A stretch of 64,000 nt of DNA from Acidimicrobiia bacterium (lineage in GTDB: Bacteria > Actinomycetota > Acidimicrobiia > Spongiisociales > ZC4RG35), in contig JANQRA010000023.1 in assembly GCA_028284765.1 (NCBI GenBank), forward strand, positions 1-64,000, read 5' to 3'. Positions 16,983-27,295 of the stretch are shown here, in pieces; position 1 is the stretch's first letter, and the number at the start of each line of letters is the position of its first letter. The notes beneath the pieces were generated by a model. That model made no database searches and was not told the DNA's origin. It was given only the letters and a program-made list of their open reading frames with translations. The position numbers and the translations under genes are program-made.

Positions 16983-17441
16983 CTACATGAAGAGGGGGTC
17001 TTCTCCGAGGTCTTCTAAGCCCAGCACCCAACCAGCTGGCAGATTCCAATGACGAGCGCCATTGACCATTGCTTCCAAGTACTCAGGGCTCGGCCGGAGC
17101 TCACCGTTCGCCGGTTCGGAGGTAACAAAGGTGAGGCAATCGTGTTTGTTGCCTTCCCGGTCCACGGCCTTGAGGTCAAAGCCCGGGACCCGGCCTTCTG
17201 CCGCCTCCGCTTCGGCTACGGCTGAGATCTCCTCATCGGGGAGTTCGAAGACACCGCCCCAGACGGTGTTGCCGGCCGCCTTGGTGAGAGTTGGCACCGC
17301 ACCCTCATCGTGGTCGACGAAATCGAGTCTCGTCTCCGGATAGTGGGCGATGAACGCAAACTTCGACCCCGGGGCGATCTTCGAGATCCTCTCGGGGTCT
17401 AGTAACGATCCGTATGCGAAGTACAGCGTCGTCTTGGGCAC
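16983..17441 (-). CDS. Gamma-glutamylcyclotransferase-like protein
   Basis: The GTG start gives 152 residues. The fold signature YGSLL lies at residues 10-14 and a candidate general-base Glu82 sits in EAAEGR. Family members cleave gamma-glutamyl amino acids to 5-oxoproline, or act on gamma-glutamylamines; the substrate here is unknown. A TACTAT box lies just upstream of the GTG, consistent with a nearly leaderless transcript. The gene is divergent from the TGA-containing thioredoxin gene across 89 bases. Confidence 0.85.
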   Translation of the reverse strand: MPKTTLYFAYGSLLDPERISKIAPGSKFAFIAHYPETRLDFVDHDEGAVPTLTKAAGNTVWGGVFELPDEEISAVAEAEAAEGRVPGFDLKAVDREGNKHDCLTFVTSEPANGELRPSPEYLEAMVNGARHWNLPAGWVLGLEDLGEDPLFM

Positions 17442-17530
17442 GGGTCAGGGAATAGTACATGTCGCTCACCCAATGCATGGCAACCGTCGCTTTACATCGC
17501 TTATACAGAGATCGGTCTACGGTTCCGGCT

Positions 17531-18145
17531 GTGCGTCGAGTTTTGCTAGCCGTGATGGTGCTGTCGTTGCTCGTTGCCGCGTGCAGCCCGGCAACGGATT
17601 CAGCAGGTGAATCCACCGCTCCGACTTCTGACCAGGGGAGCACCTCTTCGGCGGGCGGGTCATCGGGAGAGGATGGCTCGACAACAACCGGCCAATCCGG
17701 TGACACGACCACGACGTCAGACAGGCCGCTTGCGCCTGACTTCAGACTTGAACTTGGCAATGGTCAGGGGACATACGTTCTCTCCGAAGAGTCGAAACCT
17801 GTGTTCATGATCTTCTGGGCCGAGTGGTGACCATCTTGTAGGCGGGAGTTGCCCGTCGTCGACGGCCTTGCGGCCGAGTACGCCGATCGAGTCGACTTCG
17901 TGGCGCCCGCTTGGAAGTCGAGTTTCGAGGACACAGCCAGCCGGGCCAATGAGCTCTTGGACTCCGGGCTCGTCTACTGGGGCCTGGACGAAGACGAAGC
18001 GATTTTCGAGGCTTACGGAGTTCCTTACCAACCAGTCACCGTCTTGATCGCCGCCGACGACACGGTTGTCCAATCCTGGGCGGGGCTCAGAGATGAGTCT
18101 GAGATGCGTGCAGCACTTGACGAATTGATAGCCCTTTCTGGCTGA
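17531..18145 (+). CDS. Thioredoxin-fold lipoprotein, probable selenoprotein (in-frame TGA at the catalytic Cys)
   Basis: Reading from GTG 17531 and treating TGA 17828-17830 as selenocysteine gives 204 residues. The lipobox is LVAAC (Cys18), followed by a Ser/Thr/Gly linker to about 66 and a TlpA-like thioredoxin domain. The active site reads FWAEW-U-PSC with Sec100 and resolving Cys103; cis-Pro168 in PYQPVT completes the fold. After the TGA the same frame stays open for 105 codons with all thioredoxin features intact. A small stem-loop lies at SECIS-like distance. Expected role: extracytoplasmic thiol or peroxide redox chemistry at the membrane. A -10-like TATACA (17502-17507) supports the GTG start; an in-frame ATG at 17459 lies upstream of it. 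The alternative is a nonsense mutation of an active-site cysteine codon. Confidence 0.78.
17828..17857 (+). promoter_or_regulatory. Candidate bacterial SECIS element with its UGA codon
   Basis: GGCGGG (17841-17846) pairs with CCCGTC (17852-17857), one G-U pair included, closing a five-base loop AGTTG. The second loop base is G, as bacterial SECIS loops require in the first two positions. Exactly 16 bases separate the TGA from the loop, the short end of the known spacing range. The stem is short, so this is suggestive, not proof. Confidence 0.55.
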
Positions 18146-18171: not shown

Positions 18172-18561
18172 ATGACCGGCCTCCCAAGACACAAGACCCG
18201 CCAGCACCCCTGGTTCCACATTTTGCGAACCAAGGAGATGGAACTGCTCGATCCGACCGTGCGCGCCAATCCGAGGAGGGTGCGGGAGTTGCTCCACGAC
18301 GATGTGCTCGAGTTTGGGAGCACGGGGAGGGTCTACAACAAGCGCATGCTTCTCGACATGCTCAGTGGGGAGCAGCCGAGCTCGGTTGTGATTCGAGAGT
18401 TCGCCGTCCGCCAACTCGCGGCGGATACCGCCCTGGTCACTTACAGGACCGTCGGTGAAGGTGGTCAGGAGGCCCGCCGGAGCTCGATCTGGATTCGCAC
18501 CGACGGCGTGTGGCAACTCAACTTCCACCAAGGGACCCGCATCTCGCGGTACGGCTTCTAG
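18172..18561 (+). CDS. SnoaL/NTF2-like protein (DUF4440 type)
   Basis: 129 residues. LLDPTVRANPRRVRELLHDDVLEFGSTG-like and the late WQLNFHQGT are characteristic of the DUF4440 branch of the NTF2-like fold, a small cone that binds diverse ligands. No catalytic set is evident and the ligand is unknown. A shorter start at ATG 18238 would begin right at the conserved domain; the 18172 start adds 22 basic residues. It lies 26 bases after the candidate selenoprotein on the same strand. Confidence 0.75.
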   Translation: MTGLPRHKTRQHPWFHILRTKEMELLDPTVRANPRRVRELLHDDVLEFGSTGRVYNKRMLLDMLSGEQPSSVVIREFAVRQLAADTALVTYRTVGEGGQEARRSSIWIRTDGVWQLNFHQGTRISRYGF

Positions 18562-18591: not shown

Positions 18592-19992
18592 TTGAGACAG
18601 TTCGAGCTGATCCTCTTTTTCGCTTGCATCTTTGCTTTGGGTTGGCCGGTGGTCTTCGGGACTCGCCCGAGACGGGGACTGGTTGCAGGACTACTGGTGA
18701 TAGCCGTTGGCCTCCAGTTCCAATTCGAAGGGTTCCGCTGGCAGATGGTCCCTCTCTATCTGACAGCCATCGGCCTCGCCATAGGCGACGTCTTCTTCCT
18801 GGAACGACGGGTGGAATGGAGCAATCGAATTACCAGGGGTCTCCTTGGGATGCTTGGTTTGGTTGCTGCTGTCGCTCTTCCGCTGATTCTCCCGGTGCCC
18901 GAACTGCCTGTCCCGTCGGGCCCCGAGGCCGTTGGTACGACATCGGTCCAGATCATTGATCGTTCACGAGATGAGCTCTATGGGCCGCGTCCCGGCGGGC
19001 CGCGAGAATTGATGGCGCAGGTCTGGTATCCGGCGGAGTTGTTGGATGAGTCCACAGTCACCCAGTGGAGTGAGGATTGGGACGTAGTGGCCCCAGCCAT
19101 GGCGCGAGATCTCGGATTTCCATCCTGGTTTCTGAACCACACTCGCTACACCGATTCACACAGCAGCCGCCCAGCCACGCTGGCCGACGGCTCGTACCCA
19201 GTGATCATCTACAGCCACGGATGGACCGGTTTCCGCACGGTGGCGGTCAATCAGATGGAGTTGCTCGCCTCCAACGGTTTTATCGTGATCGCCCCTGATC
19301 ACACCTACGGGTCTGTAGCGGTGCGCTTCGATGACGGAGACGTCGTCCTAAACGATCCGAACGCCCTTCCCGACGAGGAGACCGTGGATGCGGAAGCCTA
19401 TGCCGAAGCGTCGACCGCTCTAGTCGACACGTATGCGGCTGACATCGTTTCCATCCTCGACGAGTTGGAGTCAGGTGAGGCTGGTGCGTTCAGCGAAATC
19501 GTGGCGGGTGTTGACCTCAACCTCATAGGGGTCTTCGGCCACTCCACCGGGGGTGGCGCGGCCATAAAGGTCTGCCTTACAGATGACAGATGTGATGCGG
19601 TTCTGGGTATGGACCCGTGGGTCGAACCTCTGGTCGAGCGAGATCTGAGGAACAACATGACGCGACCGGCCCTGTACATGCGGTCCGACGGGTGGCGTGA
19701 CACGCCCAACGATGCCTTGCTGAGGGGCATCGCTGCTCGGGCCGAGGAGATCACCTATTGGCTATCGATTGAAGGCGCCGCTCACAACGACTTCACCGTG
19801 GCGCCTTTTTTCTCCCCTGTAGGCGGGCAGTTCGGCCTGGTGGGTTCCATCCCGGCCGGACGCGTCGTCCCGATAGTCGACAATTACCTACTCGGCTTCT
19901 TCGATGTCTTCCTTCTGGGCACTGGTCCTGCTGCCCTCGACTCGGTGACATTCGACGAGGTGGGAGTGGTGGTGATTGAACCAACCGGCTGA
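18592..19992 (+). CDS. Membrane-anchored alpha/beta hydrolase (PAF-acetylhydrolase/dienelactone type)
   Basis: The TTG start gives 466 residues. Three or four hydrophobic segments fill residues 1-100, followed by an external hydrolase domain. YSHGWTG is the oxyanion strand, and Ser318 in GHSTGGG is the nucleophile. An Asp in GMDPW and a His in GAAHNDF probably complete the triad. The layout resembles PAF-acetylhydrolase-like and chlorophyllase-like esterases. The substrate is unknown. Its TGA stop abuts the TCA of the convergent ccmG gene (TGATCA). Confidence 0.8.
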   Translation: MRQFELILFFACIFALGWPVVFGTRPRRGLVAGLLVIAVGLQFQFEGFRWQMVPLYLTAIGLAIGDVFFLERRVEWSNRITRGLLGMLGLVAAVALPLILPVPELPVPSGPEAVGTTSVQIIDRSRDELYGPRPGGPRELMAQVWYPAELLDESTVTQWSEDWDVVAPAMARDLGFPSWFLNHTRYTDSHSSRPATLADGSYPVIIYSHGWTGFRTVAVNQMELLASNGFIVIAPDHTYGSVAVRFDDGDVVLNDPNALPDEETVDAEAYAEASTALVDTYAADIVSILDELESGEAGAFSEIVAGVDLNLIGVFGHSTGGGAAIKVCLTDDRCDAVLGMDPWVEPLVERDLRNNMTRPALYMRSDGWRDTPNDALLRGIAARAEEITYWLSIEGAAHNDFTVAPFFSPVGGQFGLVGSIPAGRVVPIVDNYLLGFFDVFLLGTGPAALDSVTFDEVGVVVIEPTG

Positions 19993-20586
19993 TCAGCCGT
20001 CGGGAGACTGCTGCGTGCTCCCCGTGACTTTCTGGCCCGGATCTTCGCCTCGCTTGATGGCGTCGATCGTTGCCCCGAGCGTCAAAGCATCCGTTTCGCC
20101 AATGATCTTGCCGACCACTGTGCCGGTCTCGTCGATGAAGTAGGTCTCCGGTATGCCAAACACCCCGTAAGCGATTGCTGTGCGACTTCCCGGATCGGCC
20201 AGATAGAGAGTCGATTCGGCTCGTCCAGCTGTGACCAGATAGTCGAGGGAGGCCGGCGGGCTTTCTTGGTACGCAACCTGTATGAAAGTGACCCCCTGGT
20301 CTTCAAATGCGTTTGCCGTCGACACCAGATCGTCATGTTCGGCCCGACACTCGGGACACCATGAGGCGAAGAAGTTCAGAACTACCACATCACCTTGGAG
20401 GGAGTCAAGGGCGACCGGTTCGCCACCCTCGAGCGGTGAGAGGTTGAACTGCGGCGCCGGCTCCCCGAGTAAGGGCGAGTCAACCAGGCCGGGGTTGGTG
20501 CCGAATCGTGACGCCAGGACGACCGCAAAAATGACCCCGATCGCAGCGATGCCGAGGCCTGTCCAGCGGAGGGCTTTGGAGTTCAT
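19993..20586 (-). CDS. ccmG: Cytochrome c maturation thiol reductase CcmG/DsbE-like
   Basis: 197 residues with an N-terminal membrane anchor (about 8-27) and an external thioredoxin domain. The redox site is WCPEC (Cys77, Cys80), and the cis-Pro is in FGIPETYF, where the Glu-Thr after Pro is typical of CcmG. It reduces the apocytochrome CXXCH thiols, working with CcmH, before haem attachment. It is the last gene of the ccm operon and overlaps ccmH by 4 bases. Confidence 0.9.
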   Translation of the reverse strand: MNSKALRWTGLGIAAIGVIFAVVLASRFGTNPGLVDSPLLGEPAPQFNLSPLEGGEPVALDSLQGDVVVLNFFASWCPECRAEHDDLVSTANAFEDQGVTFIQVAYQESPPASLDYLVTAGRAESTLYLADPGSRTAIAYGVFGIPETYFIDETGTVVGKIIGETDALTLGATIDAIKRGEDPGQKVTGSTQQSPDG

Positions 20587-21567
20587 GTGCAGGCAGCTCC
20601 AGCGTTGAGGGCGTCCAGGTCGGACTCGACAACAGACCTGGTGTCGGACTCGAGCGTCGGATCCTCCAGGACTCGACCAAACAGGCTCGCCGCTTCATCG
20701 AGGTCGGTCGCCGAGCACCACAAGACCTGGCCTTTGAGGAACAAAGCGGTCGCCGAAGTGTCGTCAATGGCCAACGCCTCGTCGAAGAGTCCGACAGCAG
20801 CGTCGACCTCGCGGTTCCCTTCCCATGCCATCCACCCAAGCCGGACCAAAGCGGTCACCGCCTGAGGATCTGAAGCATCTGGTGACTGTGCCACCTCCAG
20901 ATAGTGGGGGAAAGCGGAACTGAAATCGCCGACTTCGAAATATCTCTCGGCCAGGGCGAGTCGCATTCCTGAGACTTCCGGGTGATCTGCGTTGGCGGCG
21001 ATCACGGCCTCCATAGTCTCGTTCGATACCTCCTCGAGGTTGTCAGTGTCGATGGCCGCCGCGCCGGTGTTTGGTCCGTCTCTGTCCTGAACGAAGAACC
21101 CTGCTACGACGACGATGGCGGCGAGTGAACCGGCGAGGAACAGGATCGGGGCCAGCTTCCTCGGTTTTTCTTCCTTGACTTCAGGCTGTGTGGCTTCGGT
21201 CGGGTTTCGGCGCCACCAGAGAATCACTCCTACGCCGACGACCAAGACCACGGCCGGAGCTAGCCAGAGCAGGAGGGTCGATCCGCTTGCCGGTGGGTCC
21301 AGGAGGACCGCGCCGCTGTAGGAGGCGAGCAGTTCGTCGACGATCTCCTGATCCGATGCGCCTTCATCGACCCTCTGGGAAACGAGGGCCATCATGTCCC
21401 TCGCCATCTGGGCCGGTGAGTCGCCGATCGACTCTCCTTGACAGACTGGGCACTTGATCGCTTGGCCCAACTGCTCGACACGGTCAGTGTCGGACTCGAA
21501 AGTGGACATCAAAAACACCAACGCGACGGCCATCACGGCAATCGCGACGGCAAACAGGCGGTTGGTG

Positions 21568-21575
<8 letters not shown>
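20583..21575 (-). CDS. ccmH: CcmH thiol-binding protein fused to a CcmI-like TPR domain
   Basis: 330 residues. An N-terminal anchor (8-24) precedes the CcmH domain with redox pair Cys42/Cys45 in KCPVCQGESIGDS. A second membrane helix at about 104-120 and a third at about 145-163 lead to a C-terminal region (about 190-320) of TPR-like helices (MRLALAERYFEVGDF, ALFLKGQVLW). This is the order of CcmH followed by the CcmI haem-lyase chaperone in one chain. It overlaps ccmG by 4 and ccmF by 8 bases. Confidence 0.9.
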
Positions 21576-23591
<2,016 letters not shown>

Positions 23592-23595
<4 letters not shown>

Positions 23596-23996
23596 GATTC
23601 CGCGTAGTTCCCCTCGTCAGGGACGTCGTAGTTCTCGTCGTGGCGGATGAGGGCTTCCTCAGCGGTGAAGACGTCCCCATTCCAATACCCATCGAGAAGG
23701 ACCGGCACGTCCTCGTTGAACAGAGGCGGGGGAGTGTTCAAGAGGATGACATCGATTGACTGTGAACCATCGGTGACTCTGAATTCGAGGTCGTTGTCGA
23801 CTTCGGACAATGAGCCCACAACAACCTGCCCGGCCAAGCGGAATCTCTCTCCGTCAGGGAAGTCCGACTTCTGAGCCACGGCTTCGTTGGGGTATAGGTA
23901 ATAGGTGAGGTTGTCGTTGAGGCTGGCGACGGTGATTCCCACCACCAGCGCGATTACCCCGACGATGCCGAAAAGGACGAACTGTCTCTGGCCCAT
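23592..23996 (-). CDS. ccmE: Haem chaperone CcmE
   Basis: 134 residues: one membrane anchor (about 6-25) and an external OB-fold. The covalent haem-binding residue is His119 in IRHDENY, with Tyr123 as the second conserved residue, so this is the classical His-type CcmE and not the Cys-type seen in some archaea and Desulfovibrio. It carries haem from CcmC to CcmF. It starts two bases after ccmD. Confidence 0.95.
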
Positions 23997-23998
23997 GG

Positions 23999-24103
23999 CT
24001 ACCCCCCGGCGCGTCGCCTGCGGATATGGAGGTATCCCGCGTACCCGAGGATCGCGCCATACGACATCAGGAAAGTTCCCACGACGACGACTGTCTCAGA
24101 CAT
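23999..24103 (-). CDS. ccmD: Small cytochrome c maturation protein CcmD
   Basis: A 34-residue single-span protein starting at ATG 24103, inside the end of ccmC (8-base overlap). One hydrophobic helix is followed by the basic tail HIRRRRAGG, the usual CcmD plan. CcmD holds the CcmA/B/C complex together and helps release holo-CcmE. Size, position between ccmC and ccmE, and topology support the call even though sequence conservation is low. Confidence 0.85.
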   Translation of the reverse strand: MSETVVVVGTFLMSYGAILGYAGYLHIRRRRAGG

Positions 24104-24806
24104 CTTCGACCTCGTCCAGGCGAGGAGGAAGAACTGCTTCTCCCGCGACCACGGGCTCTTTAGATGAGTGCTCCTCTGCGACCGCGACGTCGATCCGAGC
24201 CAGCATGAGTGCGATGTAGAGGACTGTGAATGCGAGAACGTTGACCAACATGGCAACGAGCATCTCGTCCGGCATCGTCGACCCGTCAGGCCTCAATGAT
24301 TGTGTTTGGTGGAGTGTCCGAAACAGGTTCACCGAGAAGTAGACGAGCGGGATCTGTACGACTGCGACGGCCCCAAGAACGGCGCTGCGGCGGGCCCGCA
24401 CGACGGGATCATCTATGGCGTGGCGGAGGGCGATGTAGCCCAAGTACACGAAGAACATGACTGCGGTGCTCATCAGTCGCGGGTCTTGCCAGTCCCACGG
24501 TGTGCCCCAGACAGCTTGACCCCACACCATTCCGGTGAACAAGCCGATGGCCGTGAACACGACGCCAACCTCAGCTGAAGCGGCAGCCAGTCGGTCCCAT
24601 CGGGTCTTTTTTGTCACCAGCCAGAGAATCGATCCGAAAGCGGTCACACCGAATGCCAGGAATGCAAGCCACAGCGAGGGGACGTGGATGTTTATCAACC
24701 GGCTGTATTCACCCTGAAGGGCGTCCGGTGGAGCGGTCAGGGCGAACCAGAGGCCGATGGCCACAGCTACGCCAGCCAGGCTCATCCAGACTCTTACCTT
24801 CGTCAT
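24096..24806 (-). CDS. ccmC: Haem exporter/handling protein CcmC
   Basis: 236 residues with six membrane segments. The WWD-type motif WGQAVWGTPWDWQDPR lies at 95-110, flanked by the axial-ligand candidates His41 (NIHVPS) and His129 (ALRHAID). CcmC presents haem to CcmE. The C-terminal tail of about 30 residues is acidic and cytoplasmic or external, and is longer than in proteobacterial forms. It overlaps ccmB by 4 bases. Confidence 0.95.
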   Translation of the reverse strand: MTKVRVWMSLAGVAVAIGLWFALTAPPDALQGEYSRLINIHVPSLWLAFLAFGVTAFGSILWLVTKKTRWDRLAAASAEVGVVFTAIGLFTGMVWGQAVWGTPWDWQDPRLMSTAVMFFVYLGYIALRHAIDDPVVRARRSAVLGAVAVVQIPLVYFSVNLFRTLHQTQSLRPDGSTMPDEMLVAMLVNVLAFTVLYIALMLARIDVAVAEEHSSKEPVVAGEAVLPPRLDEVEDV

Positions 24807-25477
24807 GCGTTTGCTTCCTCGAGTGGTTTGGCCAGTGCGACTCCGGTCACGGCGAGAGCGAGGTCACAGGCGATCAAAAGCAGTATCCATGGGAGGATAC
24901 TTGTCTCCCGGCCTACTGCTTCTACGGCCTGTGAGGCCCCCAGCAGGATCGGCAGGGCAAGGGGAGCAATCACCAGAGAGGCGAGTGAAGTCCTGCTCCC
25001 GAGGCCCGCAGCGATCTCCCCTGCGATGGTTCCCAATTCAGACAGGCCAAGGCCGGCTAGCAGTGTGGCAACCACAAGCACGGGCCATACCCCGGAGCTT
25101 GGCTCTGGTGTGAACAACACGACGGTGGCAAGGCCAAGGGCGACCAGGAATCCAATCATCAGGACTGTGGCGGAGATGCTGCGACCGACGAATCGAGCTG
25201 CCGGGTCGACACCGATAAGACGGAACATGTCTCTTCTTTCCTGGCTGTCGTTGACGAGTTGCCTCAGGGCTACTTGAAGGCCAAAGAGAAGCCCGAATGC
25301 CCAGTACAGACCGAAGGCGACCTCCGATATCAAGGACAGGCGAAGGTCGAGAGCCATTGGAATGATCATCAGCGCCACCACGGCGAACGGCACCACGAGT
25401 CTGAATGTCTCGCCGGCACGGCCTTCCGTCACTAGATCGACGCGAGCGATTTCGATTGCGTCGGACCAGAATCTCAT
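24803..25477 (-). CDS. ccmB: Haem export ABC permease CcmB
   Basis: 224 residues, about six membrane segments, starting with a cytoplasmic helix. The LRQLVNDSQERRDMF stretch before the second membrane pair resembles the CcmB coupling region. It forms an ABC transporter with CcmA whose ATP hydrolysis drives release of holo-CcmE. It overlaps ccmA by 4 and ccmC by 4 bases. Confidence 0.93.
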   Translation of the reverse strand: MRFWSDAIEIARVDLVTEGRAGETFRLVVPFAVVALMIIPMALDLRLSLISEVAFGLYWAFGLLFGLQVALRQLVNDSQERRDMFRLIGVDPAARFVGRSISATVLMIGFLVALGLATVVLFTPEPSSGVWPVLVVATLLAGLGLSELGTIAGEIAAGLGSRTSLASLVIAPLALPILLGASQAVEAVGRETSILPWILLLIACDLALAVTGVALAKPLEEANA

Positions 25478-26109
25478 GGCGTTGGAGCCAATCGTCCGGC
25501 GGTCAGGATGAGTGTCCTCGAGCAGGTCTTCGCTAGGTGGCTCTTGTCGTGGGAGACCATGATCACGGCTCCCGACCGCTCGGCAGTGAGTCTCACCAAC
25601 TCGGCCAGAAGCTGGTGCGCGTCGTCATCCAGCCCGGAGTAAGCCTCATCGAGCAAGAGCAGCCGCGGCCGGTCCAGCAGCTGCTGTGCGATCTCAACGC
25701 GTCTCAGCATCCCGAATGAGGACGCCCCGGCACGCCGGTGAGATGCTCCTTCAAGCCCAACCACTTGAAGTGCTTTGTCTGCTCGTTCGGAGGAGAAGCC
25801 TTGCAGTCGGGCGATGTGGTGGAGGTTCTCTGAAAGCGTCAGATGAGGAAGCAGATACGGCCGATGCCCGATCAATCCGATACGCCGGCGAGCCTGGGAA
25901 TGGTCCATCCCGCCGAACAGCGCTAGCTCGCCCTCAGAGTTCGAGGTCAGGCTGGCAAGCGCCCGTAACAGAGTTGTCTTGCCACTGCCGTTGGGCCCGG
26001 ATATTCCGACGACCTCGCTGGTGTCGACTGTGAGATCGATTCCGTCGAGAATCCGAAAACCTGCACGCTCGACGACCAGGTCCTTTGTCTCGACAATCCG
26101 CTCCACCAC
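25474..26109 (-). CDS. ccmA: ABC transporter ATPase CcmA
   Basis: I chose GTG 26109 (211 residues) because an AGGGGAG ribosome site lies just upstream; the open frame extends further without homology. Walker A is GPNGSGKT (38-45), the signature is the degenerate SSFGMLRR rather than LSGGQ, and Walker B is LLLLDEAYSGLDD. The H-loop is MVSHD. The degenerate signature is common in CcmA. It powers the CcmABCD complex. Confidence 0.92.
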   Translation of the reverse strand: MVERIVETKDLVVERAGFRILDGIDLTVDTSEVVGISGPNGSGKTTLLRALASLTSNSEGELALFGGMDHSQARRRIGLIGHRPYLLPHLTLSENLHHIARLQGFSSERADKALQVVGLEGASHRRAGASSFGMLRRVEIAQQLLDRPRLLLLDEAYSGLDDDAHQLLAELVRLTAERSGAVIMVSHDKSHLAKTCSRTLILTAGRLAPTP

Positions 26110-26137
26110 GTGAGTCTCCCCTGGAGAGGGGATGCAC

Positions 26138-26809
26138 TCAAGTTGGCGTTGCTGACTGGCGGTGTCGTAGCAGTCCAAGGGCAATGAGACCGATGCCCGC
26201 CAACAGTCCAGCGAGATACCACCCGACCGGACCGCCGTCGAGACTCGGTCGCATCGGTTCCGTGGCCAATCGTGCGAGGGAGGCCACGGTGAGTGCAGCG
26301 CCAGAGCGAAGCCAGGGCCTCCACCCGAGCCGGGATACGAGAATGGCTCCTACGACGAGAAGTAATGCTGCGTAGATCTCGACTGGATGGCGGGTGATGT
26401 CGCTTCCGGGCTGGGCGACCGCCCAAGGCAAGTCCGATGCAGTGCCGAGACAAGCGCCACGCCATAGGCATCCCGCCTGCCAGCCGGCAAGACCCAGCAA
26501 AATCGACGGACTCAGTGCGTCAAGATTGGACAGCTGACGGCGATTGGTCCACCCAAGAAAGAGAATGAAACTCAGAGCTGCGATCGGCGTGGCAACACCC
26601 CCACGCACGATGAGCAGTTCCCCCGGGTTGGTCAGAGGATTGATTCCCTGGTCGACCATGGCGGCGAGTCGACCAACAGCCAAGCCCGTCACCGACGCTC
26701 CGATCAGCTGATCGAATGCACGCTCCGGGAGGCGATCCGGCCAGATACGAAGGCCTAGCCACGCCGCAGCAGCGCCGGTGAGCGCAGCGAAGAGGAGTGT
26801 GAACTCCAT
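26138..26809 (-). CDS. Lgt-like membrane protein (prolipoprotein diacylglyceryl transferase family)
   Basis: 223 residues and about seven membrane segments. GACLGTASDLPW and TRHPVEIYAALL match the Lgt signature around the catalytic region, but the chain is shorter than true Lgt (about 260-300), and the family's long periplasmic arm region is reduced. It may be a paralogue specialised for the neighbouring lipoprotein or for another lipid transfer. Its ATG directly abuts the tlpA stop (TGAATG), and ccmA follows after 28 bases. Confidence 0.7.
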   Translation of the reverse strand: MEFTLLFAALTGAAAAWLGLRIWPDRLPERAFDQLIGASVTGLAVGRLAAMVDQGINPLTNPGELLIVRGGVATPIAALSFILFLGWTNRRQLSNLDALSPSILLGLAGWQAGCLWRGACLGTASDLPWAVAQPGSDITRHPVEIYAALLLVVGAILVSRLGWRPWLRSGAALTVASLARLATEPMRPSLDGGPVGWYLAGLLAGIGLIALGLLRHRQSATPT

Positions 26810-27295
26810 TCAGGAGTCGAGCTGGAGCAGTTCGTCGATATTCAGAGCGAGAGTTCGTTCGTCCACAATCCCATTGTGCGTCGACACCAGCTCACCATGT
26901 GGACCAAAGAAGAAAGTGATTGGTGTGCCAAGTCCGCCGAGTGAGTTCGGAACCGACCGATTGCGGTCGAAAAAGTGGTCGAAATCGAGGCCGAACTCGG
27001 CAAGGAATTCCTTGGCACCAGCCTGCGTGTCTTGCACATCCACGCCAATGAACTCGATTTCATCGCCATATTGCTCGAAGGCTGTGTTGAGGAGGGGTGC
27101 CTCGGAGCGGCACGGCAGACACCACGATGCCCAGACGTTGACAACCGCGGGTCGATCGATGGTCTCGAGGTGGGCTGCGAAAGAGACGGCGTCAGTCTCC
27201 GGCAGGTCTGGAATAGCTGCCGCTTCAGGGTTGTCACTGATGCCGTTCCCGCAGGCGGCAACTACAAATGCGATCAGCACGAGCTTGCGGATCAT
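26810..27295 (-). CDS. TlpA/ResA-like thioredoxin lipoprotein
   Basis: 161 residues. The lipobox is VAAC (Cys15). The thioredoxin active site is WCLPC (Cys59, Cys62), and the cis-Pro is in GTPITFF. It is expected to be membrane-tethered outside the cell and to reduce apocytochrome or another ccm partner. It is the first gene of the ccm operon. It uses Cys at the position where the lipoprotein at 17531 has TGA. Confidence 0.88.
   Translation of the reverse strand: MIRKLVLIAFVVAACGNGISDNPEAAAIPDLPETDAVSFAAHLETIDRPAVVNVWASWCLPCRSEAPLLNTAFEQYGDEIEFIGVDVQDTQAGAKEFLAEFGLDFDHFFDRNRSVPNSLGGLGTPITFFFGPHGELVSTHNGIVDERTLALNIDELLQLDS

Follow-up and report, generated by a model that had tools for sequence, protein, structure and literature searches.

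The gene at positions 17531–18145 (+) of the window, i.e. of the whole 64,000-nt stretch of Acidimicrobiia DNA that was analyzed, very probably encodes a selenoprotein, most likely a lipid-anchored, extracytoplasmic selenol-disulfide reductase of the ResA/TlpA type. Its frame runs from a GTG start codon at 17531 to a final TGA stop codon at 18143–18145 and is open apart from a single internal TGA (17828–17830, +). Read through, the gene yields 204 residues, and the internal TGA becomes U100, the first position of the redox motif W-U-P-S-C (within the peptide ...FMIFWAEW-U-PSCRRELPVV...). Comparison of homologues makes selenocysteine (Sec) at position 100 near certain. A sequence-only reading of this DNA had placed the TGA at the first of the two Cys positions in a WCxxC motif, within a frame that continues past it, and direct reading of the codons bore this out. 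The frame is indeed open to a natural stop; the 105 codons given for its downstream part are, more precisely, 104 sense codons and the stop codon. Standard annotation breaks the gene, as had been proposed: translation with table 11 returned only a truncated ORF (17459–17830).

The read-through protein consists of a signal peptide with the lipobox LVAAC (Cys18), a low-complexity linker rich in S, T, and G (residues ~20–65), and a thioredoxin-fold domain (residues 66–204). Two Pfam domains scored above the gathering score, i.e. Redoxin (39.8 bits, gathering score 26.6) and Thioredoxin (34.2 bits), and AhpC-TSA matched as well. The lipoprotein signal, the resolving Cys, and the cis-Pro that had been recognized from the sequence all held up in an alignment of 65 sequences, where the invariant positions were Cys18, F95, W96, A97, E98, W99, U/C100, Cys103 of the UxxC motif (TGT, 17837–17839, +), P108, W150, Pro168 (CCA, 18032–18034, +), and G185. 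The cis-Pro at position 168 is preceded by a near-invariant Gln167.

A first scan of public genomes recovered ten clear relatives, of which nine carried TGA at the site and the other TGC; the named records among them were mostly Acidimicrobiia or unclassified Actinobacteria. In a sample of 395 genomes from the window's class, a profile search detected the gene in 98, with homologues that were 70–35% identical. Presence in about one quarter of the sampled genomes makes it look like a real selenoprotein family. Reading the codon in the DNA of 110 copies gave TGA in 104 cases, TGC in five, and TGT in one, and the TGA copies came from 92 further genomes belonging to eight families of the class. 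A lipobox was detected in 100 of the 110 copies, while the remainder were mostly cut or had a box outside the search pattern. Across a phylum-wide sample of 396 genomes, the family was confined to the window's order. The sole match beyond this order (G681, same phylum), examined as a UAG-Sec variant with a TAG inside, carries the active site WCGPC and was rejected as lying outside the family. Plasmid records were also searched for the gene, without a match.

Several genomes displayed additional copies. Two or three consecutive homologues, all with TGA at the redox motif, were found in one genus (g7; L063 3279–5696, and also L074, L075, L064, and L156); the third copy is shorter (~175 aa) and has a WUPVC-type or WULVC motif. 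Genome G257 (L070 58–492, G257:C20, and L071) contains a TGA copy together with a distant TGT copy (FWAEWCHTC), which begins near a contig end and sits on a very long branch. At L072 3603–4403 (G270:C1), two in-frame TGA codons occur within the matched stretch.

The simplest alternative is a pseudogene or a sequencing error, in which the TGA would be a nonsense mutation and the remaining frame a relic. TGA is a stop codon in table 11, and one-base changes from TGC or TGT to TGA are common. However, the codon is TGA in 104 of 110 copies, across 92 further genomes and eight families, and the hairpin described below is conserved. Selection also acts past the TGA in distant as well as close pairs. 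For the window gene and a relative with 70% identity, the region 3′ of the TGA displayed a pN of 0.135 and a pS of 0.713; for a close pair, the values were 0.021 and 0.388. Among 21 homologues of equal length, differences at the first, second, and third codon positions numbered 689, 438, and 1302. Because pN lies far below pS, the sequence after the TGA is, by this measure, translated and useful, and under purifying selection. The sequence-only reading had argued that a random nonsense mutation would rarely hit this very codon, and both the recurrence of the TGA at the identical codon and the low nonsynonymous relative to synonymous divergence downstream exclude a chance event. Close homologues with Cys and a strain-specific TGA accompanied by decay had been named as the pattern that would speak for such an event; the homologues instead carried TGA nearly throughout, with a conserved downstream domain. 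As the TGA recurs with an intact domain behind it, we consider the pseudogene reading refuted, with a negligible residual probability.

A SECIS-like hairpin follows the TGA at 17841–17857 (+; core GGGAGUUGCCC). With the T of the TGA numbered as 1, positions 14–19 pair with 25–30 in a 6-bp stem (GGCGGG/CCCGUC), and positions 20–24 form the 5-nt apical loop AGUUG (17847–17851), which starts 16 nt after the UGA. The minimum free energy (MFE) was about −10 kcal/mol (−10.0 to −10.6). The published model of bacterial SECIS elements has a loop of 3–9 nt with G in the first two positions and a stem of 4–16 bp, together with a spacing of 16–37 nt and an MFE of −7.5 or lower (PMC13188914). The window hairpin agrees with this model, with the loop G at position 2 and the spacing of 16 nt at the lower limit.

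Since amino acids also constrain the bases of the hairpin, synonymous codons were shuffled among sequences within amino acid and column as a control. The outer three pairs were formed in 95.8% of cells versus 87.6 ± 0.8% after shuffling (no value as high in 1000 shuffles), and the mean MFE of the region was −11.0 versus −9.5 ± 0.1 in the codon-shuffled sets. Among 96 distinct sequences, pair 14–30 was G-C in 62, A-U in 22, C-G in three, and U-A in one; its 26 double-change cells were spread over 13 or more tree changes. The stem thus carries more compensatory change than the codon-shuffled control. Tree-based independent pairs for the stem pair (five supported) had the expected direction and were too few for significance. 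The Leu codon in the loop was TTG or TTA in 84 of 96 sequences, versus 15% elsewhere in the same genes. For the Cys homologues, the corresponding count was 0 of 6, and the stem was broken. In a minority of copies, e.g. the third tandem copies, the pairing was displaced by one position, and in a few divergent copies it was poor.

The source genome (2.9 Mb, 98% complete) was searched for the Sec machinery family by family. Absence of selA, selB, selD, or tRNA-Sec had been foreseen as evidence against a selenoprotein, and all four were present, so that the genome appears, by comparison, capable of decoding Sec. These genes comprise (i) selA (C11:39–1322, 416.7 bits); (ii) selB, directly 3′ of selA (C11:1334–3079); (iii) the tRNA-Sec with anticodon UCA (C19:39873–39964, 74.7 bits with a gathering score of 47); and (iv) selD (C6:88929–89855, 384 bits). 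Three weaker matches of the tRNA-Sec model in the genome were examined and discarded as ordinary Ser and Leu tRNAs. The selD gene holds one in-frame TGA itself (L030 1531–1533, G000:C6), within GAG-U-ACK and followed by strong hairpins, at a site that we take to correspond to the region around the catalytic Cys17 in E. coli SelD. SelD of this genome is accordingly a selenoprotein candidate on its own, and the TGA inside selD would serve as an internal positive control for the use of Sec by this organism. Across the class-wide sample, 259 of the 395 genomes contained selA, far more than carry the gene and including many genomes of ~1 Mb (family f12), which points to widespread use of Sec in this class.

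The UGA might also be decoded as another amino acid, by a global reassignment (e.g. to Trp) or by a near-cognate or Cys-charged opal suppressor tRNA. Routes of UGA readthrough other than Sec exist in nature, and opal tRNA-Cys variants as well as recoded tRNA-Sec occur in some bacteria. TGA is, however, the ordinary stop of the gene at 17531–18145 and of many other genes in the window, and the tRNA-Sec was the only opal tRNA sought and found, with tRNAs scanned in the window and the loci. Under such decoding the hairpin would be purposeless, and it would not be expected that copies with TGA track the Sec machinery and copies with Cys its loss. We regard decoding as another amino acid as very improbable and retain Sec as the reading of this codon.

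The association of codon and machinery was assessed among the carriers of the gene. In 84 of 93 genomes with a TGA copy, selA was detected. The other nine, considered as counter-examples, were interpreted as assembly gaps rather than exceptions, because three contained tRNA-Sec, one contained selB, and five were at most 77% complete. Four of the five genomes with only a Cys form had neither selA, selB, nor tRNA-Sec at a completeness of 95, 93, 96, and 97%; the fifth (G198) retains all three. Restricted to genomes that were at least 90% complete, TGA was accompanied by a Sec marker in 61 genomes and by none in zero, while Cys alone was found with a marker in one genome and without in four (Fisher p = 7e-6, uncorrected for phylogeny). 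A minimum of four changes on the protein tree is required to account for the Cys forms. Tree-based independent pairs for machinery loss versus Cys had the expected direction; as only three were supported, too few for significance, this tree-aware test of co-occurrence is without power. The Cys form of G198 (L067, G198:C64) groups as sister with those of two genomes that lack the machinery, and the change from Sec to Cys may, judged from this placement, precede the loss of the machinery. Both G198, with machinery and Cys, and G257, with both forms, indicate that Sec is not strictly required.

To place the protein structurally, its fold was predicted by AlphaFold2 with the 65-sequence alignment. 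The mean pLDDT was 84.8, with values above 90 for residues 66–204 and a disordered linker. By comparison with solved structures, the nearest was ResA (Foldseek E 9e-13; Z 21.5, rmsd 1.5 over 136 residues); the best 15 Foldseek matches were all of the ResA type, and TlpA, CcmG, DsbF, and Etrx types followed as further neighbors. The model thus displays a ResA-type thioredoxin fold, the cis-Pro, and a Glu after the redox motif, as in proteins of the ResA/TlpA kind. The residue preceding the cis-Pro groups thioredoxin-like enzymes by activity, and Gln at this position, versus Leu in ResA, implies that substrate and redox direction may differ. The Glu, E106, with a conservation of 90% or higher, lies three residues past the resolving Cys and matches E80 of ResA, a residue required for recognizing the substrate (PMC5909903). 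One CcdA/DsbD_TM gene was found in the genome (C12:90656), on the same contig and 27 kb past the window end; electrons for proteins of this kind usually come from a CcdA-type donor (PMC3884852).

Possibly, the selenoprotein has another activity, i.e. that of a peroxiredoxin-like selenoperoxidase, an oxidase, or an isomerase rather than a reductase. This fits the best Pfam match being Redoxin, the additional match to AhpC-TSA, the occurrence of peroxiredoxins further down the fold list, and the Gln before the cis-Pro, which is unlike ResA. The motif is nevertheless UxxC with both positions invariant, as opposed to the TxxC/TxxU of peroxiredoxins, the top structural matches are exclusively ResA-like, and no NCBIfam peroxiredoxin model matched. 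On balance, such an activity is unlikely, and a reductase remains the preferred function. In the mechanism that we propose, the hairpin at 17841–17857 would direct tRNA-Sec(UCA) and SelB to decode UGA 17828 as Sec. The product would be exported, lipid-modified at Cys18, and tethered outside the cytoplasmic membrane by the flexible linker. The selenolate of Sec100 would attack a disulfide of the substrate, Cys103 would resolve the mixed selenenyl-sulfide, and the oxidized protein would be re-reduced from the cytoplasm via the CcdA-type membrane protein. The comparisons above bear out the capacity to decode Sec, the position of Sec, the hairpin, and the fold, and we infer the lipidation, the reductive direction, and the CcdA partner.

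Upstream of the gene, TACGGT (17518–17523, +), a −10-like TANNNT motif 7 nt 5′ of the GTG start, is a probable promoter for a leaderless mRNA. Among homologues, TANNNT mostly occurred 5–9 nt before the start (peak at 6–8), with 67 of 100 in the interval −18 to −4 versus 3 of 100 in a control interval, and SD-like sequences were scarce (16 of 100). Given the closeness of this motif to the start and the few SD-like sequences, the mRNAs of the selenolipoprotein genes are probably leaderless. The divergent upstream neighbor (16983–17441, −) resembles a gamma-glutamylcyclotransferase by eye and had no NCBIfam match. Downstream are a small SnoaL/DUF4440-like protein (18172–18561, +; assigned by eye, no NCBIfam match, found in five genomes of the family) and a gene encoding membrane segments and an alpha/beta hydrolase (18592–19992, +), the commonest downstream neighbor in the family (18 of 24 genomes). 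They are followed by an apparently complete System I cytochrome c maturation cluster with ccmA, B, C, E, F, G, and H (19993–26184, −). Its first gene encodes a membrane-anchored CcmG/DsbE-like thioredoxin protein with Cys (WCPEC, 19993–20586, −), and the others are ccmH-TPR, ccmF, ccmE, ccmC, ccmB, and ccmA (20583–26184, −; ccmF, ccmB, and ccmA assigned by eye). A second thioredoxin-like lipoprotein, also in the Cys form (WCLPC), is encoded at 26810–27295 (−). Thus, the other two thioredoxin-like proteins of the window both carry WCxxC, in line with what had been read from the sequence.

This arrangement raises the question of a reductase dedicated to cytochrome c maturation, i.e. a selenoprotein ResA/CcmG acting on apocytochrome c. 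In favor of it are the ResA fold with the equivalent of E80, the full ccm cluster that begins 1.8 kb downstream, and the recurrence of ccmG-, ccmH-, or ccmF-like neighbors in part of the family (ccmH-like genes near the selenoprotein gene in 13 of 24 genomes of the window's family). Yet the ccm cluster comes with a Cys CcmG of its own, and the ccm neighbors are encoded on the other strand and are missing in most of the other genomes. In other families, the neighbors were trpD, an aquaporin, fur, or cbiM. No operon partner was universal across the carriers, the commonest being an upstream trpD (55 genomes); as neighbors differ between families, the partners are not fixed. With ccm neighbors in part of the family and others elsewhere, a role in cytochrome c maturation is possible but doubtful, and we keep to the broader assignment as an extracytoplasmic selenol-disulfide reductase.

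The family was compared with known systems. ResA of Bacillus subtilis, an extracytoplasmic protein of cytochrome c maturation System II, is alike in fold (26% identity), in its membrane-anchored extracytoplasmic location, in a redox motif that starts helix 1, and in the Glu three past the resolving Cys. It differs in that the window protein has Sec for the first Cys, a lipoprotein anchor, and Gln rather than Leu before the cis-Pro, and in that the ccm genes beside the selenoprotein gene belong to System I with its own CcmG. The ResA model NF002854 scored 50.1 bits, below its cut-off of 170. The Rcas_1661 (seleno)lipoprotein family NF041057, described as DsbG-like with UxxC (PMC13188914), likewise consists of thioredoxin-like lipoproteins with Sec or Cys first in the motif, but the window protein reached only 18.3 bits (cut-off 190), aligned with its N-terminal part only, and represents a separate family. 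The ResA-like WAxxUGC protein NF041054 shares a ResA-like domain with Sec; it has a UGC motif and ~354 residues, whereas the window protein has UxxC and scored 19.6 bits (cut-off 300). The pneumococcal Etrx1 and Etrx2 are similar as lipid-anchored surface proteins with a thioredoxin fold (the best PDB sequence match was 4hqs, 1.3e-20), but have CxxC without Sec and come from another phylum. Marine metagenome surveys reported Sec forms with many Cys homologues in a Redoxin family (PF08534, UxxC) and in Trx-like 1 (COG0526, UxxC) (PMC2398784, PMC13188914). These bins share the UxxC motif, and the Redoxin domain PF08534 is also present in the window protein above the gathering score; they are, however, domain-level bins without named orthologous families and were compared by description, so the window family may coincide with one of them.

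None of the NCBIfam models reached its cut-off in a scan of 11 members, a literature search found no paper describing a selenoprotein of Acidimicrobiia, and the deep-Sep and review papers on selenoproteins did not mention Actinobacteria. The family looks unnamed, because no NCBIfam model covers it and no such paper was found. Selenoproteins with a thioredoxin fold and UxxC, lipoproteins included, are already known, and the Acidimicrobiia family looks like a new member at the family level, possibly listed earlier within the published bins. Tentatively, we suggest an undescribed orthologous family of ResA-type selenolipoproteins, nearly always with Sec across one Acidimicrobiia order, with Cys mostly where the machinery is gone, and with tandem arrays of two or three Sec copies in a single genus, that might serve a selenium-needing extracytoplasmic reduction, possibly in cytochrome c maturation.

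In about one in four of the class genomes sampled, standard annotation misses this gene, although its product ranks with the better conserved redox proteins of these genomes. An annotation model built on the FWAEWUxxC motif and the hairpin, both distinctive enough for this purpose, would recover such genes. Paired Sec and Cys forms, along with gain or loss of the machinery, provide a natural experiment on the benefit of selenium to a ResA-type reductase, and the gene marks a part of the Actinomycetota that would use selenium outside the membrane.
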